From: Promineifilum sp.
GTDB taxonomy: Bacteria > Chloroflexota > Anaerolineae > Promineifilales > Promineifilaceae
Length of the DNA: 34,355 bases
Reading direction: 5' to 3'
Assembly (NCBI GenBank): GCA_019454405.1
Contig: JACFOH010000018.1
Coordinates: 8,732 to 43,086, forward strand
In this document: in pieces, positions 11,006 through 15,830 of the stretch
How positions within the stretch are numbered: position 1 is the first letter of the stretch
How the letters are laid out: each line of letters starts with the position of its first letter
Position numbers and translations under genes: made by a program
Notes under the pieces: model-generated
Seen by the model: the letters and a program-made list of their open reading frames with translations, nothing else
Told to the model about the DNA's origin: nothing
Databases searched by the model: none

Positions 11006-12487
11006 CTATCGGCCGGCGTGTCGTTGAATAAAGACTGCGGCTTCGTCGCGCGTGCTTACTTCCCCGGCGGCTTGGGCCTCTTCCAGGAGGCGCAGCAGGC
11101 GGCCGACCTCGTGCCCCGGCGGTATATTCGCCAGCTCCATCACCGCCTGACCGTCCAGCAGCCGCGGCGGGGCGATGGTCTGCTCATAATCCTCAAAGTA
11201 CGTTCCGAATAGTACTCTAATGGTAGCTAGCAGCGCTTTCCAGTCCTGTTCGCCGCCGATACCGTCATATGTTGCCAGATGGTCGGCCAGCGCCAGTAGC
11301 CCGACGTCCTGACCTGCCTCGTGTAGAGTCTTGTAATAACGGTAGGCGGCCCGCCGGCTGGGCAGCCGGCCATCCTGAGTCAGGTAAAGCGGCCGCATAT
11401 GCCCACCGACGATATGTCGTACTCTACGGACAGCTTCGTTGCTAAAGCCGAACGATGACAACCTCTCGCCGGCGATATCCGCGCCTGCCTCATCATGGCC
11501 TGTAAAACGGATACGGCCATCGGGATCGATTGTTTGGGTGGCCGCCTTGCCGGCGTCGTGGAATAGACCGCCCCATCGCAGGAGCAATCGCCCTTTGAAT
11601 CCGCCGTCCACGGACTTGTCTAAATGTTCGCATAATTCGGTTCGATAAGGCTTTATGAGCTGTTCGACCTCTTCGCTCCACGTGACCGTCACGGGCCTCC
11701 CATCGACCAGCCGCTCTATTTGCGCCAGATAGCGCAAAACAGTCAGGGTATGCTGGAGGGCACCCTCATGGTGTGGGGAGGATTGAGCTATGCCATCAAG
11801 TGCGGCGATCTCGGGTAGTGCTGGCGCGAGCAGGCCCAATTCATGCAACAAGGCAATTCCCGCGTGCGGCTCATCAACTGATAACAGTTGCGAGAGTTCA
11901 TCGCGAATCCTCTCGGCGGATGTTCGTTCGGGCAAGGTAGGCGCGATGGCCTGAGCCGCAGCGCGCGTCTCCGCTGTTAACCTAAAACCCAATTGGACAG
12001 AAAACCTGGCTGCCCGCAGCGCTCGCACTGGATCGTCAGCGATTGTGTGCTCATGAACAACGCGAATATCCTTCGTCGCCAAGTCATCCAGCCCTTTATG
12101 GAGATCGATGATGTCTTCGATCGAGTGGCCATCGGCTGGCATCGCCAGGGCGTTGATCGTGAAGTCGCGGCCGAGCAGATCGTCTTCGAGAGTCGAGCCA
12201 CGAAAACGTGCGATATCGAGCGTTGTCCCTTCCTCCAATACGAGGATGCGGCCGACATCTCGTTTGACGTCCATCGCGTAGGCGGGATAACCGAGCGCGT
12301 TGGCCAGCCGGAAGGTCAAAGCGATGGCTCCCGAAGGCACGGCTAGATCGATGTCGTGGTTGGCTCTCCCCAGGACCGCGTCACGTACCGCTCCCCCGAC
12401 GACATAGACTGGCGTCTCCTCCGCTGCAAGGAGCGGGCGAAGTCGATCCATCAAGGGTGTCAGCGATAAGCCTTCTATTTCGGTCAC
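11006..12487 (-). CDS. cca: CCA-adding / poly(A) polymerase family nucleotidyltransferase with HD domain
   Basis: This protein of about 493 residues is a class II nucleotidyltransferase, probably adding or repairing the CCA end of tRNA. The head domain shows V-G-G-A-V-R-D (30-36) and the catalytic D-I-D (45-47). These are followed by R-F-R-G, G-R-D-F-T-I-N-A-L-A and the R-A-x-R-F helix of the neck (D-D-P-V-R-A-L-R-A-A-R-F). A C-terminal HD phosphohydrolase-like domain contains L-F-H-D-A-G-K with HD at 310-311. I chose GTG 12487; a TTG at 12520 in the same frame would overlap the hpt stop by 8 bp. It is the last gene of the tdk-hpt-cca unit. CCA-adding versus poly(A) activity cannot be told by eye. 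Confidence 0.88.
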   Translation of the reverse strand: MTEIEGLSLTPLMDRLRPLLAAEETPVYVVGGAVRDAVLGRANHDIDLAVPSGAIALTFRLANALGYPAYAMDVKRDVGRILVLEEGTTLDIARFRGSTLEDDLLGRDFTINALAMPADGHSIEDIIDLHKGLDDLATKDIRVVHEHTIADDPVRALRAARFSVQLGFRLTAETRAAAQAIAPTLPERTSAERIRDELSQLLSVDEPHAGIALLHELGLLAPALPEIAALDGIAQSSPHHEGALQHTLTVLRYLAQIERLVDGRPVTVTWSEEVEQLIKPYRTELCEHLDKSVDGGFKGRLLLRWGGLFHDAGKAATQTIDPDGRIRFTGHDEAGADIAGERLSSFGFSNEAVRRVRHIVGGHMRPLYLTQDGRLPSRRAAYRYYKTLHEAGQDVGLLALADHLATYDGIGGEQDWKALLATIRVLFGTYFEDYEQTIAPPRLLDGQAVMELANIPPGHEVGRLLRLLEEAQAAGEVSTRDEAAVFIQRHAGR

Positions 12488-12512
12488 ATTATTCCGGCCG
12501 CCAAGGCCGAGT

Positions 12513-13073
12513 CTATGCAAACAAGTGGGCGAATACTGCTGGTTTCAGGATAGCGATGAACGGCAGATTGCGATAGATCTCATCAAAGTCCAGTCCGTAG
12601 CCGACGACGAACTCGTCGGGGATATCGAAACCGATGTAATCTACCTCTACGTCGATCTCACGGCGAGCGGGCTTGTTCAGTAAGGTGCAGATTCGTAACG
12701 ACGCAGGCGACCGTGCCATAAGATTTCGGCGCATATAGTTGAGCGTCTGGCCGCTGTCGATGATATCTTCGATGATAAGGACGTTTCGATTTTCGATGGG
12801 CGCCTTCAAGTCCATGATGATCTGCACCGCGCCCATGCTGGTCGTGCCCTTGCCATAGCTGGAAATGCCCATGAAATCGATGCTATGAGGGCGCTTCAAT
12901 GAGCGGGAAATGTCGGATAGAAAGATATACGCTCCCTTCAGGACGCAAATCAGCAGTAGATCGTCCTGGTCGGCGTAATCAGACTCGATTTGAGCAGCCA
13001 GCGCCTTGACCCTGGCCTGCAGCGTTGCCTCGTCGATGAGTATGTTATCAATATCAGCCCAGATATCACGCAT
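12513..13073 (-). CDS. hpt: Hypoxanthine phosphoribosyltransferase
   Basis: This 186-residue purine salvage enzyme forms IMP (and often GMP) from hypoxanthine or guanine and PRPP. The PRPP-binding loop [13 protein letters not shown] lies at 98-110. V-L-K-G-A-Y-I-F near residue 45 and [17 protein letters not shown] (the family C-terminal signature) are also present. ATG 13073 is chosen because it gives the normal N-terminus and is preceded by GGGGAGGAG; the open frame reaching 13190 lies inside tdk. Its start overlaps the tdk stop by 8 bp, so the two salvage genes are translationally coupled. Confidence 0.95.
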
Positions 13074-13698
13074 GGCTCTGCTCCTCCCCTTCCGCGATGG
13101 CGGATTCTGAAGCGGGTAAAACTTGATGGCATTGGCGACAGCGCGCTTCGTACACTTCGGCCGCGCCGACCAGTACGATCGGATCATCAAATGCCGCCGG
13201 CCTGCCTTCGATCAAGCGTTGGGTGCGGCTGGCGTCTTCGCCACAAATGACACAGATGGCGTGTAATTTGTGAACGTCCTCAGCCCGAGCCAGAAGGGCG
13301 GGCATCGGGCCAAACGGAAGCCCTCGAAAATCCATATCCAGACCGGCACAAATCACTCTCTTGCCGTCTTCCGCCAGCCTTTCACATACCTCGACGATGC
13401 CCTCATCGAAGAATTGTATCTCATCGATCCCGACTACGTCGGTTTCAGGGTCCAGCAGATCGAAAATATCACTCGATAATTCTACGGGCTGGGCTTCGAA
13501 ATACAGGCCGTTATGAGACGTCACCTTTTCGAGGTTGTAACGGGAATCGACGGCCGGCTTGAAAGCTTGCACCTGCTGGCGAGCGATGACGGCCCTTCGC
13601 AGCCGGCGGATCATCTCTTCTGTCTTGCCGCTGAACATACTTCCACAAATGAGTTCGATCCGGCCACGTGGGTGAGTAACGTGCGATGGCGGGGTCAT
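13066..13698 (-). CDS. tdk: Thymidine kinase
   Basis: This type II thymidine kinase of 210 residues phosphorylates thymidine to dTMP for salvage. It shows the P-loop G-S-M-F-S-G-K-T (19-26), the Walker B-like [11 protein letters not shown], the lasso region [11 protein letters not shown], and a zinc site made of C-V-I-C and C-R-Q-C-H. ATG 13698 is preferred over ATG 13704 because the AGGAG sequence lies 6 nt before it. The gene starts only a few bases after the T tract of the hairpin that ends the ribosomal protein unit, so it may depend partly on read-through. It is followed by hpt. Confidence 0.95.
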
Positions 13699-13710
13699 GG
13701 GCATCTCCTG

Positions 13711-13750
13711 AATAATAAAAGGGCTGACACGTATTAAAACGTATCAGCCC
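13711..13750 (-). terminator. Intrinsic terminator after the rplU-rpmA-rpmE unit
   Basis: On the minus strand GGGCTGA and ACGT arms pair with ACGT and TCAGCCC (13750-13744/13742-13739 with 13732-13729/13727-13721) around a 6-nt loop. The tract TTTTATTATT (13720-13711) follows. It ends about 6 nt before the tdk Shine-Dalgarno and could also tune tdk expression. Confidence 0.88.
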
Positions 13751-13814
13751 TATTATCCTCTCAATCGAGTTTTCTTACAAAACCGGATCGCGCCATTTGG
13801 CGGCCGGATGACGA

Positions 13815-14261
13815 TTAGTCGATCAATTCTTCGTCACGCATGTAGCGCTTGATCTTGATGAGCGCTGTTTGGCCGATGCCCTGGAGCGCCAGGATCTCAT
13901 CGTCCCCTTGCTTCAAGAGCTTCAAGACGTCGCCCACAGTGGTCAGCCCCGCCTGTGTTAACGCGTTGTTGGCGCGCGTGCCGAGCTCCATCTCTTCAAT
14001 GCTGAAGTTTTCCGGATTTCGGCGCTGTTTCACAGTTTCGGTATGGGTCTGGATTTCTTCCCGTTTCTGCAGACGTCGCATGAAGCGATCGACCTGTCCC
14101 TCGGTGTCCATCAGACGCTGCGTACCGGTGTAGAAAGGATGAGTGCCCGACCAGACTTCGACCGAGATCTCCGGCTTGGTTGAGCCGACGGTCATGACGA
14201 CCTCACCTTCGACGATGACCTTGGCGTTAGGGTACCATTTTGGATGAATGGATTCCTTCAT
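13815..14261 (-). CDS. rpmE: Ribosomal protein bL31 fused to an alpha-CTD-like helix-hairpin-helix domain
   Basis: This protein of 148 residues is twice the usual bL31 length. Residues 1-65 are bL31: M-K-E-S-I-H-P-K-W-Y, V-E-V-W-S-G-T-H-P-F-Y-T-G, then D-T-E-G-Q-V-D-R-F-M-R-R. All four zinc cysteines of the C+ type are absent (W and T replace the pair in V-E-V-C-S-x-C-H-P-F), so it is a zinc-free form. After a charged linker (66-85), residues 86-143 read F-S-I-E-E-M-E-L-G-T-R-A-N-N-A-L, then L-T-T-V-G-D-V-L and L-Q-G-I-G-Q-T-A-L-I-K-I-K. This closely matches the RNA polymerase alpha C-terminal domain pattern (I-x-x-L-x-L-S-x-R-x-x-N-x-L, then T-V-x-D-L, then G-x-x-S-L-x-E-I). It is the third gene of the rplU-rpmA-rpmE unit and starts 6 bp after rpmA. 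The function of the added domain is unknown. Confidence 0.9.
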   Translation of the reverse strand: MKESIHPKWYPNAKVIVEGEVVMTVGSTKPEISVEVWSGTHPFYTGTQRLMDTEGQVDRFMRRLQKREEIQTHTETVKQRRNPENFSIEEMELGTRANNALTQAGLTTVGDVLKLLKQGDDEILALQGIGQTALIKIKRYMRDEELID

Positions 14262-14267
14262 GGCGGC

Positions 14268-14540
14268 TTACTCTCCCGCGGCTTCCAGTTGTGCCGGATA
14301 AACGCTGACGACCTTACGGCCGAAACGATGTTCAAATGTTACCTGTCCGTCGATCAGGGAGTAGATGGTATAGTCGCTACCCACACCGACGTTATTTCCA
14401 GGGCGATATTTCGTTCCCTTCTGGCGGACGATAATGGTACCGGGGCCGACATACTCGCCACCGTAGCGCTTGATGCCCAGGCGCTTGGCGTTGCTGTCGC
14501 GACCGTTACGGGTTGATCCGCCACCTTTCTTGTGTGCCAT
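14268..14540 (-). CDS. rpmA: Ribosomal protein bL27
   Basis: This 90-residue protein of the large ribosomal subunit has an N-terminal tail that reaches towards the peptidyl transferase centre. It starts [16 protein letters not shown], followed by the signature [11 protein letters not shown] and [12 protein letters not shown]. The N-terminus lacks the Firmicutes-type extension that is removed by a protease. It sits 32 bp downstream of rplU and 6 bp before rpmE. AGGAG precedes the start. Confidence 0.98.
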
Positions 14541-14572
14541 GTTATAACTCTCCTAAGCTTTTCCCGTTTGGA

Positions 14573-14887
14573 TTACCCGGCGACGATCTCGTCAATGCGC
14601 AGGCGCGTATAATCCTGCCGATGACCACGACGTCTGCGATAGCGGTGCTTTGAGCGGTATTTCCAGACGAAAATCTTCTTGCCCCGATATTGTTCGACAA
14701 CAGTCGCTTTAACAGTGGCTCCGGATACGGTCGGCCGACCCACCTGCACGGAATCCCCGTTGGCGATCAGCAACACGTCATTCAGTTCCACCTGGTCACC
14801 GACTTCATAAGGCAACTTCTCTACGGAGAAGGTGTTGCCTTCTTCGGCGCGGTATTGCCGGCCACCACTCTCTACAATAGCGTACAC
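14573..14887 (-). CDS. rplU: Ribosomal protein bL21
   Basis: This 104-residue large-subunit protein starts with the family sequence (V)Y-A-I-V-E-S-G-G-R-Q-Y and ends with K-K-I-F-V-W-K-Y-R-S-K-H-R-Y-R-R-R-R-G-H-R-Q. The start codon is GTG 14887, preceded by GGAGGT at ideal spacing; the frame is open to 14938, but that part lacks family similarity. It is the first gene of a unit driven by a perfect consensus promoter, and its leader is unusually long and structured. Confidence 0.97.
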   Translation of the reverse strand: MYAIVESGGRQYRAEEGNTFSVEKLPYEVGDQVELNDVLLIANGDSVQVGRPTVSGATVKATVVEQYRGKKIFVWKYRSKHRYRRRRGHRQDYTRLRIDEIVAG

Positions 14888-14996
14888 GTTAACCTCCAAA
14901 AAGAACCGGCAACCTTGTCCGGCGCCGGTGTTCGTCAATATGACTTGTTGTTCATGACGCGCGATGCAGGCGTGGTTGGTGAACCCACATCACGCG
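14888..14996 (-). promoter_or_regulatory. Structured leader of rplU with a terminator-like hairpin (possible L21-type leader)
   Basis: The predicted mRNA leader is about 110 nt. At its 5' end GCGTGATG (14995-14988) pairs with CATCGCGC (14966-14959), an 8-bp stem with one G-U pair and an inner GGTT/AACC. Near its 3' end ACCGGC (14929-14924) pairs with GCCGGT (14910-14905) and is followed by TCTTTTT and then GGAGGT, so the stem and T run sit just before the Shine-Dalgarno. This layout suggests attenuation or autogenous control. An L21 leader is known in Bacillus; similarity to it was not tested. Confidence 0.55.
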
Positions 14997-15003
14997 AACT
15001 CGA

Positions 15004-15032
15004 ATTATAGAATGGAATCGGCGCCTTGTCAA
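15004..15032 (-). promoter_or_regulatory. Consensus sigma-70 promoter of rplU-rpmA-rpmE
   Basis: The minus strand reads TTGACA (15032-15027), a spacer of exactly 17 bp and TATAAT (15009-15004): a perfect match to the housekeeping consensus. Start is expected near 14997. It is the strongest promoter in the window, as expected for ribosomal protein genes. Confidence 0.93.
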
Positions 15033-15124
15033 AACTTTTTTGGTTGTTGGTCGCCTGGCTAACGATTATGCTTTGCCGGCACGGGGCGCCCAGGCCTGCC
15101 CGGTTCGTCATCCACCGGCGCTTT

Positions 15125-15133
15125 TGTTATACT
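15125..15133 (+). promoter_or_regulatory. Promoter of the ECF sigma factor gene
   Basis: TG-T-TATACT is an extended -10 box with one mismatch. A weak TTCGTC-like -35 lies at about the right distance. The start should fall near 15140, a few nucleotides before ATG 15147. Confidence 0.5.
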
Positions 15134-15146
15134 GCCCGCTATTCCG

Positions 15147-15830
15147 ATGGCTTTGCCGAGAGAGGCTCAAGAGGTTGGCGACGTAAGTATGGCAGATAAA
15201 CCAGTCGATTCAAATAATGATGAGTCGGCTTTGATCGAGCATGCCAAGTCCGATCAAGACGCTTTCGGCCAACTTTATGAGCGCTATTCACAGCGGATCT
15301 ACCAATATATCTATTATCGTACCAGTAGTGACGCCGACGCGGAGGATTTGACGGCCAAGGTTTTCATGCGAGCCTGGCAGCACATGCCTAATTATGATGA
15401 TCGCGGCGTTCCGTTCTCTGCCTGGCTCTATCGCATTGCCCACAATCTTGTCGCTAATTGGCACCGGGATCGCAGCCGTCGCAAGATTATCTCTCTCGAC
15501 GATCTAAGTCGCTGGCAGGTGAACGAAAACGGACCTGAAGCGGCCATGTTGCTGGCCGAAGATCGGGCGGCATTGTTGCGCGTCGTTCGTCGCCTGCCGT
15601 CTGACCGTCAGGAGTTGCTTGCATTAAAATTCGTAGAGCACCTGTCCAATGCTGAGATAGGCGCCGTTATGGGGCGTAGCGAAGGGGCGATTAAGTCTCT
15701 CTATCATCGTACCTTGCTGGCCTTACGTGAAGAACTGCAACAGGAGATGCCCACCGCTCCCAAGGGATCGCCCATCCGTCGTTTACTAGGGCGGCTGGGC
15801 GAGCGCGGGAGTGCACGCGAATCTGATTGA
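15147..15830 (+). CDS. ECF-type RNA polymerase sigma factor (sigma-70 family)
   Basis: This group IV sigma factor of up to 227 residues binds core RNA polymerase and redirects it to special promoters. Region 2 is seen as A-F-G-Q-L-Y-E-R-Y-S-Q-R-I-Y-Q-Y-I, D-A-E-D-L-T-A-K-V-F and F-S-A-W-L-Y-R-I-A-H-N-L. Region 4 shows L-P-S-D-R-Q-E-L-L-A-L-K-F and a helix-turn-helix A-E-I-G-A-V-M-G-R-S-E-G-A-I-K-S-L. There is no SnoaL or other C-terminal addition. The start may be ATG 15147 (almost leaderless) or ATG 15189 (M-A-D-K-P-V), which gives 213 residues. No anti-sigma factor with a zinc-finger domain follows; the next gene encodes a membrane protein. The regulon is unknown; the downstream oxidase cluster is a possible target by position only. 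Confidence 0.9.
   Translation: MALPREAQEVGDVSMADKPVDSNNDESALIEHAKSDQDAFGQLYERYSQRIYQYIYYRTSSDADAEDLTAKVFMRAWQHMPNYDDRGVPFSAWLYRIAHNLVANWHRDRSRRKIISLDDLSRWQVNENGPEAAMLLAEDRAALLRVVRRLPSDRQELLALKFVEHLSNAEIGAVMGRSEGAIKSLYHRTLLALREELQQEMPTAPKGSPIRRLLGRLGERGSARESD

Follow-up and report, generated by a model that had tools for sequence, protein, structure and literature searches.

A ribosomal protein bL31 with a C-terminal RNA polymerase alpha-CTD-type domain in Anaerolineae-type Chloroflexota, and its possible link to the transcription machinery

Introduction

Why should a ribosomal protein end in a domain of the kind that ends the alpha subunit of RNA polymerase, and what may such a domain do there? 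This question is raised by the rpmE gene in a stretch of 34,355 nucleotides from Promineifilum sp. (hereafter the window, meaning the whole stretch analysed). How RNA polymerase contacts the ribosome is understood in just a few model organisms, where the contact depends on NusG and NusA. Fused proteins of this type are already entered in databases, under the name 50S ribosomal protein L31 and with both Pfam domains, and a literature search, judged from titles and abstract openings, found no description of the bL31 fusion. In the present study, we examined the identity, spread, history and possible role of the added domain.

Results

The rpmE gene lies on the minus strand at 13815..14261 and forms one intact whole-gene ORF of 148 amino acids. 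A sequence-only reading had taken residues 1-65 for a zinc-free bL31 and the C-terminal part for an alpha-CTD or helix-hairpin-helix (HhH) domain, and both assignments were borne out. The bL31 part (14067..14261, minus strand) gave 79.2 bits with Pfam PF01197 over the whole domain (cut-off 27) and 92.6 bits with the NCBIfam L31 model PRK00528 (cut-off 70), and no L21 match was found in the protein at E <= 10 with the Pfam and NCBIfam profiles. The RNA polymerase alpha-CTD-type (HhH)2 domain was placed at residues 82-148 (13818..14018, minus strand); PF03118 matched residues 80-141 with 33.6 bits (cut-off 23.8), and the fold agreed with alpha-CTD too. The linker, residues 66-81 (14019..14066, minus strand), was delimited from AlphaFold models and dN/dS. 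It was modelled as the continuation of one helix over residues 56-81, with lower confidence at 71-80, and the alpha-CTD-type domain is predicted to stand on a helical stalk.

The gene closes a minus-strand row in which it is preceded by rplU (bL21, 14573..14938; PF00829 129.6 bits), unfused in the window, and rpmA (bL27, 14268..14540; PF01016 122.2 bits), whose stop is 6 bp ahead of the rpmE start. Because a promoter-like site (TTGACA-17-TATAAT at 15004..15032, minus strand, 12 of 12 consensus matches) stands upstream of rplU and a terminator-like hairpin of 13 pairs (13720..13751, minus strand) follows rpmE, the row rplU-rpmA-rpmE is probably one transcription unit. The promoter-like sites are consensus matches and not proof, 6 being found in 12400-15400 vs 2.0 expected, and the hairpin is weak evidence, with one terminator-like site found vs 3.0 expected in shuffles. 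No Rfam family reached its gathering threshold in the window.

In the window's own genome (71% complete) there was a single L31 match, the fused bL31, and three alpha-CTD matches, namely RpoA, the fused bL31 and a protein starting with alpha-CTD-like repeats. RpoA is encoded separately (L002) and has an alpha-CTD of its own, and the fused bL31 is not the polymerase alpha subunit. The idea that the bL31 domain compensates for a lost RpoA alpha-CTD was rejected, as RpoA of this genome retains its domain. A PF03118 match in an RpoA-sized frame (322-396 aa) was present in all of the 40 genomes given.

The bL31 fusion was found in at least 95 of 298 genomes of the window's class, one per genome, and in at least 19 of 59 sampled families; this count takes the genomes whose bL31 match reaches query position 134 or more among the best 150-odd matches. 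None of 34 further class genomes below or near those best matches was fused (30 read, 4 judged by coordinates), and in the rest of the phylum none of the 30 bL31 loci read, from 30 of 301 genomes, had the domain. A protein search returned 2031 relatives at E <= 1e-3, and 119 of the best 120 were 148 aa long. Searching with residues 80-148, which reaches only near relatives with words in common with the window, returned 111 proteins, of which 106 have 148 aa, one has 123 and four have 88. The four 88-aa proteins (P0121, P0122, P0125 and P0129) are the domain part alone; they are either a gene-call artefact or products of an internal start, because a start at M61 of the fused bL31 would give this length.

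A scan of GTDB contigs gave 73 loci, in which every fusion read (L035-L073 and L107) belonged to a record labelled as Chloroflexi, Chloroflexota or one of their subgroups. The domain was absent from the Thermoflexales, Roseilinea, Prochlorococcus, planctomycete and Patescibacteria-type matches read, and from the other Anaerolineae-labelled scan loci read; locus L075 ends at a contig edge. The zinc-type bL31 at L074:2959-3429 is matched by tblastn up to residue 142, and its frame is interrupted after about 62 residues in the assembly. Among named species, Anaerolinea thermolimosa (P0136, by UniRef cluster name) carries both domains above cut-off in a bL31 of 158 aa. Since the fusion is full length in at least 95 of the 298 class genomes and in A. 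thermolimosa, and since its domain is under constraint, we conclude that it is no artefact; a frameshift or mis-assembly joining two genes, the error that the sequence-only reading had allowed for, is ruled out by so many independent genomes and the named species. Six of 8 further fused bL31 proteins scored above the PF03118 cut-off and two below. The domain has drifted in some fused bL31 (e.g. L071 and L107), and for some copies, such as that of L071, the generic HHH_5 model is a better fit than the alpha-CTD one.

Most fused bL31 proteins have a zinc-type core (76 of 94). Each of the 15 complete proteins from the window's family has a zinc-free core, as do 3 of 9 in family f117. Because the zinc-type core predominates and the zinc-free one is confined to few families, zinc loss and fusion are taken as separate events. 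In some f117 proteins (L084-L086, L135 and L147) the zinc-free core comes close to that of Prochlorococcus bL31, which may point to convergent change or to recombination in the core alone.

The linker is the fastest evolving part and the domain evolves under constraint, as the median dN/dS was 0.056 in the bL31 core, 0.275 in the linker (residues 66-84) and 0.115 in the domain; these values come from 21 non-independent pairs among 29 equal-length fused genes like that of the window, after a pS filter. This bears on the view that the tail is tolerated baggage, spread by recombination and functionless. The module is promiscuous in the class and has drifted at the two loci named above, as such a view would have it. 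The low dN/dS of the domain, its presence in at least 19 families and more than one gain speak against it, and we give this view hardly any credence.

The residues of the domain were compared with the alpha-CTD DNA-contact set, R265, N268, N294, G296, K298, S299 and E302 of Escherichia coli. By alignment, R96, N99, G128, G130, T132, A133 and K136 of the window protein stand at these places in the same order. The full set is absent from the window domain, which retains R265, N268 and G296 only, with T, A and K in place of K298, S299 and E302, and it is only partly retained across the bL31 family. One could suppose that the domain binds DNA as the RpoA alpha-CTD does on UP elements, either tying the ribosome to the nucleoid or placing free bL31 at promoters, that of its own operon included. 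The equivalents of R265 and G296 are indeed kept in 83 and 82 of 94 bL31 domains, and, depending on the family, the module is carried by the gene that opens or the gene that closes the rplU-rpmA-rpmE row. However, N268 is kept in 27, S299 in 30 and N294 in none of the 94, vs 31 of 31 for each in RpoA of the class, and the bS16 fusion described below is not on the contig of bL31 in the 3 genomes read. Since residues invariant in the class RpoA are only partly kept in bL31, the pattern speaks against RpoA-like promoter DNA binding, which we regard as very unlikely.

HhH domains often bind nucleic acid, and the main rival to the reading preferred below is an rRNA anchor, in which the HhH domain binds ribosomal RNA (e.g. 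helix 41 of the 30S head) and strengthens the intersubunit bridge of bL31. In line with this, a GhG hairpin is present in nearly all bL31 copies, with G at the N294 position in 92 of 94 (and in 13 of 14 NusA copies), and the tails of unfused relatives start basic, with a mean of +2.0 over 35 residues in 9 tails. bS16 and bL21, which carry the module too, are rRNA-binding proteins. Furthermore, excerpts of one report place the C-terminus of E. coli bL31 at h41 and its last residues as aiding subunit association (PMC9966373). Against an rRNA anchor, the K298 equivalent is kept in just 61 of 94 domains, the likely donor in genome G373 (see below) is a transcription factor, NusA, and the domain charge is near neutral to slightly acidic, with a mean net charge of -0.4 (n=74, the fused proteins in which a motif located the core end) or -1.7 (n=94, other boundaries); for comparison, RpoA had -0.9 and NusA -4.5. 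We read this charge as unlike that of a basic rRNA-binding tail, and we consider the anchor somewhat unlikely.

In a NusA-core tree of 64 genomes, the fused genomes fell in separate clades: a 24-genome group including the window's family (99/99), f9+f125+f122 (99/87), f93+f113+f117 (100/99), and f101 (100/99), in which G373 is fused and its sister G347 is unfused. The genomes with fused bS16 or bL21 formed a group of their own (100/98). NusA was extracted from 64 of 68 loci (missing L260, L354, L371 and L375); several NusA reads stop at the edge of the locus sequence, past the place of the domain, and that of G371 is cut inside it. The root and deep order of the tree are unsure, because four rows from other classes fall inside the class on long branches, and losses between the 24-genome group and the f9+f125+f122 group are possible. 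In a domain tree of 95 rows and 72 columns, which took 40 of the 95 fused bL31 rows and has many unresolved forks, the bL31 domains lay in three groups, and its well-supported (starred) branches force at least two changes, not three. A single origin of the bL31 fusion was disfavoured (one-clade p-AU 0.0205, on 72 columns and including the evident recent copy in G373). From these trees, bL31 apparently gained the domain more than once.

The clearest history was read in G373 (assembly 92% complete, 6% contamination). Here nusA, encoding two tandem alpha-CTD domains (L324:1116-3137, minus strand), is divergent from the rplU-rpmA-rpmE row alongside, whose last gene (L324:4002-4493, plus strand) encodes a bL31 with a near copy of a NusA repeat. 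The bL31 domain agrees with repeat 2 of its own NusA in 49 of 60 residues and in 162 of 192 bases over 64 codons, with repeat 1 in 47 of 60 and with RpoA in 35 of 60; the domain tree joins it to repeat 1. The sister genus G347 has a NusA with the domain and a bL31 tail without it, its bL31 core and linker being identical to those of G373 at 76 of 88 positions. Because the match between bL31 and NusA exceeds that between NusA repeat 2 and the NusA of G347 (43 of 60), the bL31 of G347 is unfused and nusA adjoins, the G373 bL31 domain is most likely a recent copy from NusA made after the two genera diverged. In the other clades either NusA or RpoA may have been the donor: 66 of 94 bL31 domains score closer to NusA and 28 to RpoA, with mean identities of 0.31 and 0.35, respectively. 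A 3-residue insertion common to the bL31 and NusA domains was dropped as proof of descent from NusA, as RpoA of the class has it too.

The same module was found on other proteins. A full-length bS16 with a C-terminal alpha-CTD-type domain occurs in at least 9 of 298 class genomes, in families f86, f112 and f116 (L318:612-1199, minus strand; L319:344-841 and L320:267-791, plus strand; L329-L337). The module was read in G304, G360 and G331, and in 3 genomes read the bS16 fusion and bL31 are on different contigs. A bL21 with such a domain occurs in at least 4 of 298, in f86 and f116 (L306:2005-2589, minus strand; L296:696-1235, plus strand; L341; L342). In G304 and G360, bL21 was matched by a search with the bL31 alignment, and their own bL31 is short. 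The fused bL21 is the first gene of the rplU-rpmA-rpmE row, and the fused bL31 elsewhere is the last. Both counts are of best-ranked matches, with the fused ones at the top, so that a very diverged one lower down could escape. Six further bL21 with long frames were read and none had an alpha-CTD-type domain. By eye, bL21 of G096 (f2, with fused bL31; L384, minus strand) has another HhH-like tail, of the kind seen in alphaproteobacterial bL21.

In class genomes the module also ends NusA, twice in G373, and PF03118 matches lie in NusA frames of other genomes as well. In G326, the beta' subunit (L327:1704-5501, minus strand) has an internal alpha-CTD-type domain at residues 517-573 (27.6 bits vs 23.8). 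PF03118 was above cut-off in one bS16, G373 NusA, the beta' case and both bL21 cases. Some further proteins were noted: matches in G312, G314 and G322 lie in frames of similar length to the G326 beta'; a 1228-aa frame (L325) has six alpha-CTD-like repeats, one of them weak; and the module also terminates a membrane-type protein of G168 (L321, minus strand, frame residues 338-411). The loci L325, L326 and L003 include proteins with up to six alpha-CTD-like repeats and proteins in which such repeats are combined with parts that by eye look sigma-region-4-like and HARE-HTH-like; one of the latter is in the window's own genome at G000:C29.

With respect to NusA, its domain reached at least 20 bits in 22 of 33 bL31-fused and 3 of 3 bS16/bL21-fused genomes, vs 7 of 24 class genomes lacking a fusion and 0 of 4 from outside the class. 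These counts are raw and follow phylogeny, and NusA copies were among the sequences behind the domain HMM, so that they are suggestive only of the bL31 fusion and the NusA domain going together. In the bL31-fused genomes, 11 of 33 scored below 20 bits and 6 of 33 below 7, and in f93, f113 and f117 bL31 is fused and NusA lacks the domain in all four read. For NusA of the window's own genome, no KH_5 match was obtained in the 71% complete assembly, and relatives were used.

Discussion

The explanation that we prefer, held tentatively and at somewhat less than even confidence, is that the bL31 domain docks the ribosome, or unassembled bL31, onto the transcription machinery, probably onto NusA or RNA polymerase alpha. 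Docking is preferred because the carriers of the module include RpoA, NusA and beta', one donor was very likely NusA, and three ribosomal proteins gained and kept it; as far as the comparisons of genes can tell, its presence on bS16 and bL21 and the G373 copy from NusA favour a link to this machinery. The fused bL31 would sit in the ribosome as in E. coli, its C-terminus reaching uS14 and helix 41. Excerpts of the structural reports describe the E. coli bL31 C-terminus as crossing the 30S head to S14 and helix 41 (PMC9966373) and a bL31 bridge to uS13 (PMC10931766). The domain would then bind NusA, as the E. coli alpha-CTD does, or a partner alpha-CTD-type domain, and from the 30S head it could reach polymerase-bound NusA or alpha-CTD. 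In E. coli, according to parts of two studies, alpha-CTD binds NusA-NTD and NusA-AR2 (PMC7171158; PMC12297416). Such binding in E. coli is reported to be in the micromolar range. The outcome may be transcription-translation coupling, the role that the sequence-only reading had suggested, or the delivery of ribosomal proteins to nascent rRNA.

The three carriers bS16, bL21 and bL31 are at different places on the ribosome, and for this reason no single fixed coupling geometry would serve all of them. This would be explained by an off-ribosome role, in which the domain brings free bL31, bS16 or bL21 to the polymerase transcribing rRNA and accelerates assembly during transcription, while translating ribosomes stay uncoupled. 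As a protein that joins the ribosome late and binds it loosely, bL31 would be an odd choice for this task. Part of one study sets E. coli NusA-AR2 in ribosomal antitermination via SuhB (PMC7171158), which fits such a role. On balance, we judge a purely off-ribosome role to be quite unlikely. Returning to docking, its wider form is a modular ribosome-polymerase tether in Anaerolineae-type Chloroflexota, in which domains grafted on bL31, bS16 and bL21 meet homologous domains of RpoA, beta' and NusA and couple translation or assembly to transcription beyond NusG alone; this is conceivable and rather more doubtful than not.

Within one bacterial class, three ribosomal proteins have acquired a polymerase-type domain, bL31 apparently in more than one event, and this recurrent grafting pattern is more surprising than a single fusion. 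If the domain binds the transcription machinery, the pattern would amount to an experiment of nature, run repeatedly, in making a coupling device; should the domain bind rRNA, a transcription domain would have been recruited as a ribosomal part. Since a named species, A. thermolimosa, carries the fusion, direct testing is possible.

Compared with known systems, the window protein has the same whole core as ordinary bacterial bL31 (PF01197; PRK00528), and it is likewise the sole copy found in its genome and stands beside rplU and rpmA. The ordinary protein stops on the 30S head after about 65-70 aa, whereas the window bL31 adds a stalk and a domain of about 80 residues together. In contrast to the RNA polymerase alpha-CTD (PF03118), its domain stands on a ribosomal protein and has N294 changed to G and K298, S299 and E302 to T, A and K. 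Many NusA proteins of the class have a PF03118-type C-terminal domain, where the E. coli protein has the acidic repeats AR1 and AR2; NusA is a transcription factor, unlike bL31, and the likeness is drawn with NusA of the class alone. The addition of a C-terminal domain to a ribosomal protein has precedents, as in the PRK12278 models for bL21 (NF008915/NF008916), which also describe a ribosomal protein with a C-terminal extension, one of HhH-like type. The alpha-CTD-type bL21 fusions of the class reach about 103 bits on these models vs a cut-off of 193, and the window protein is not a bL21.
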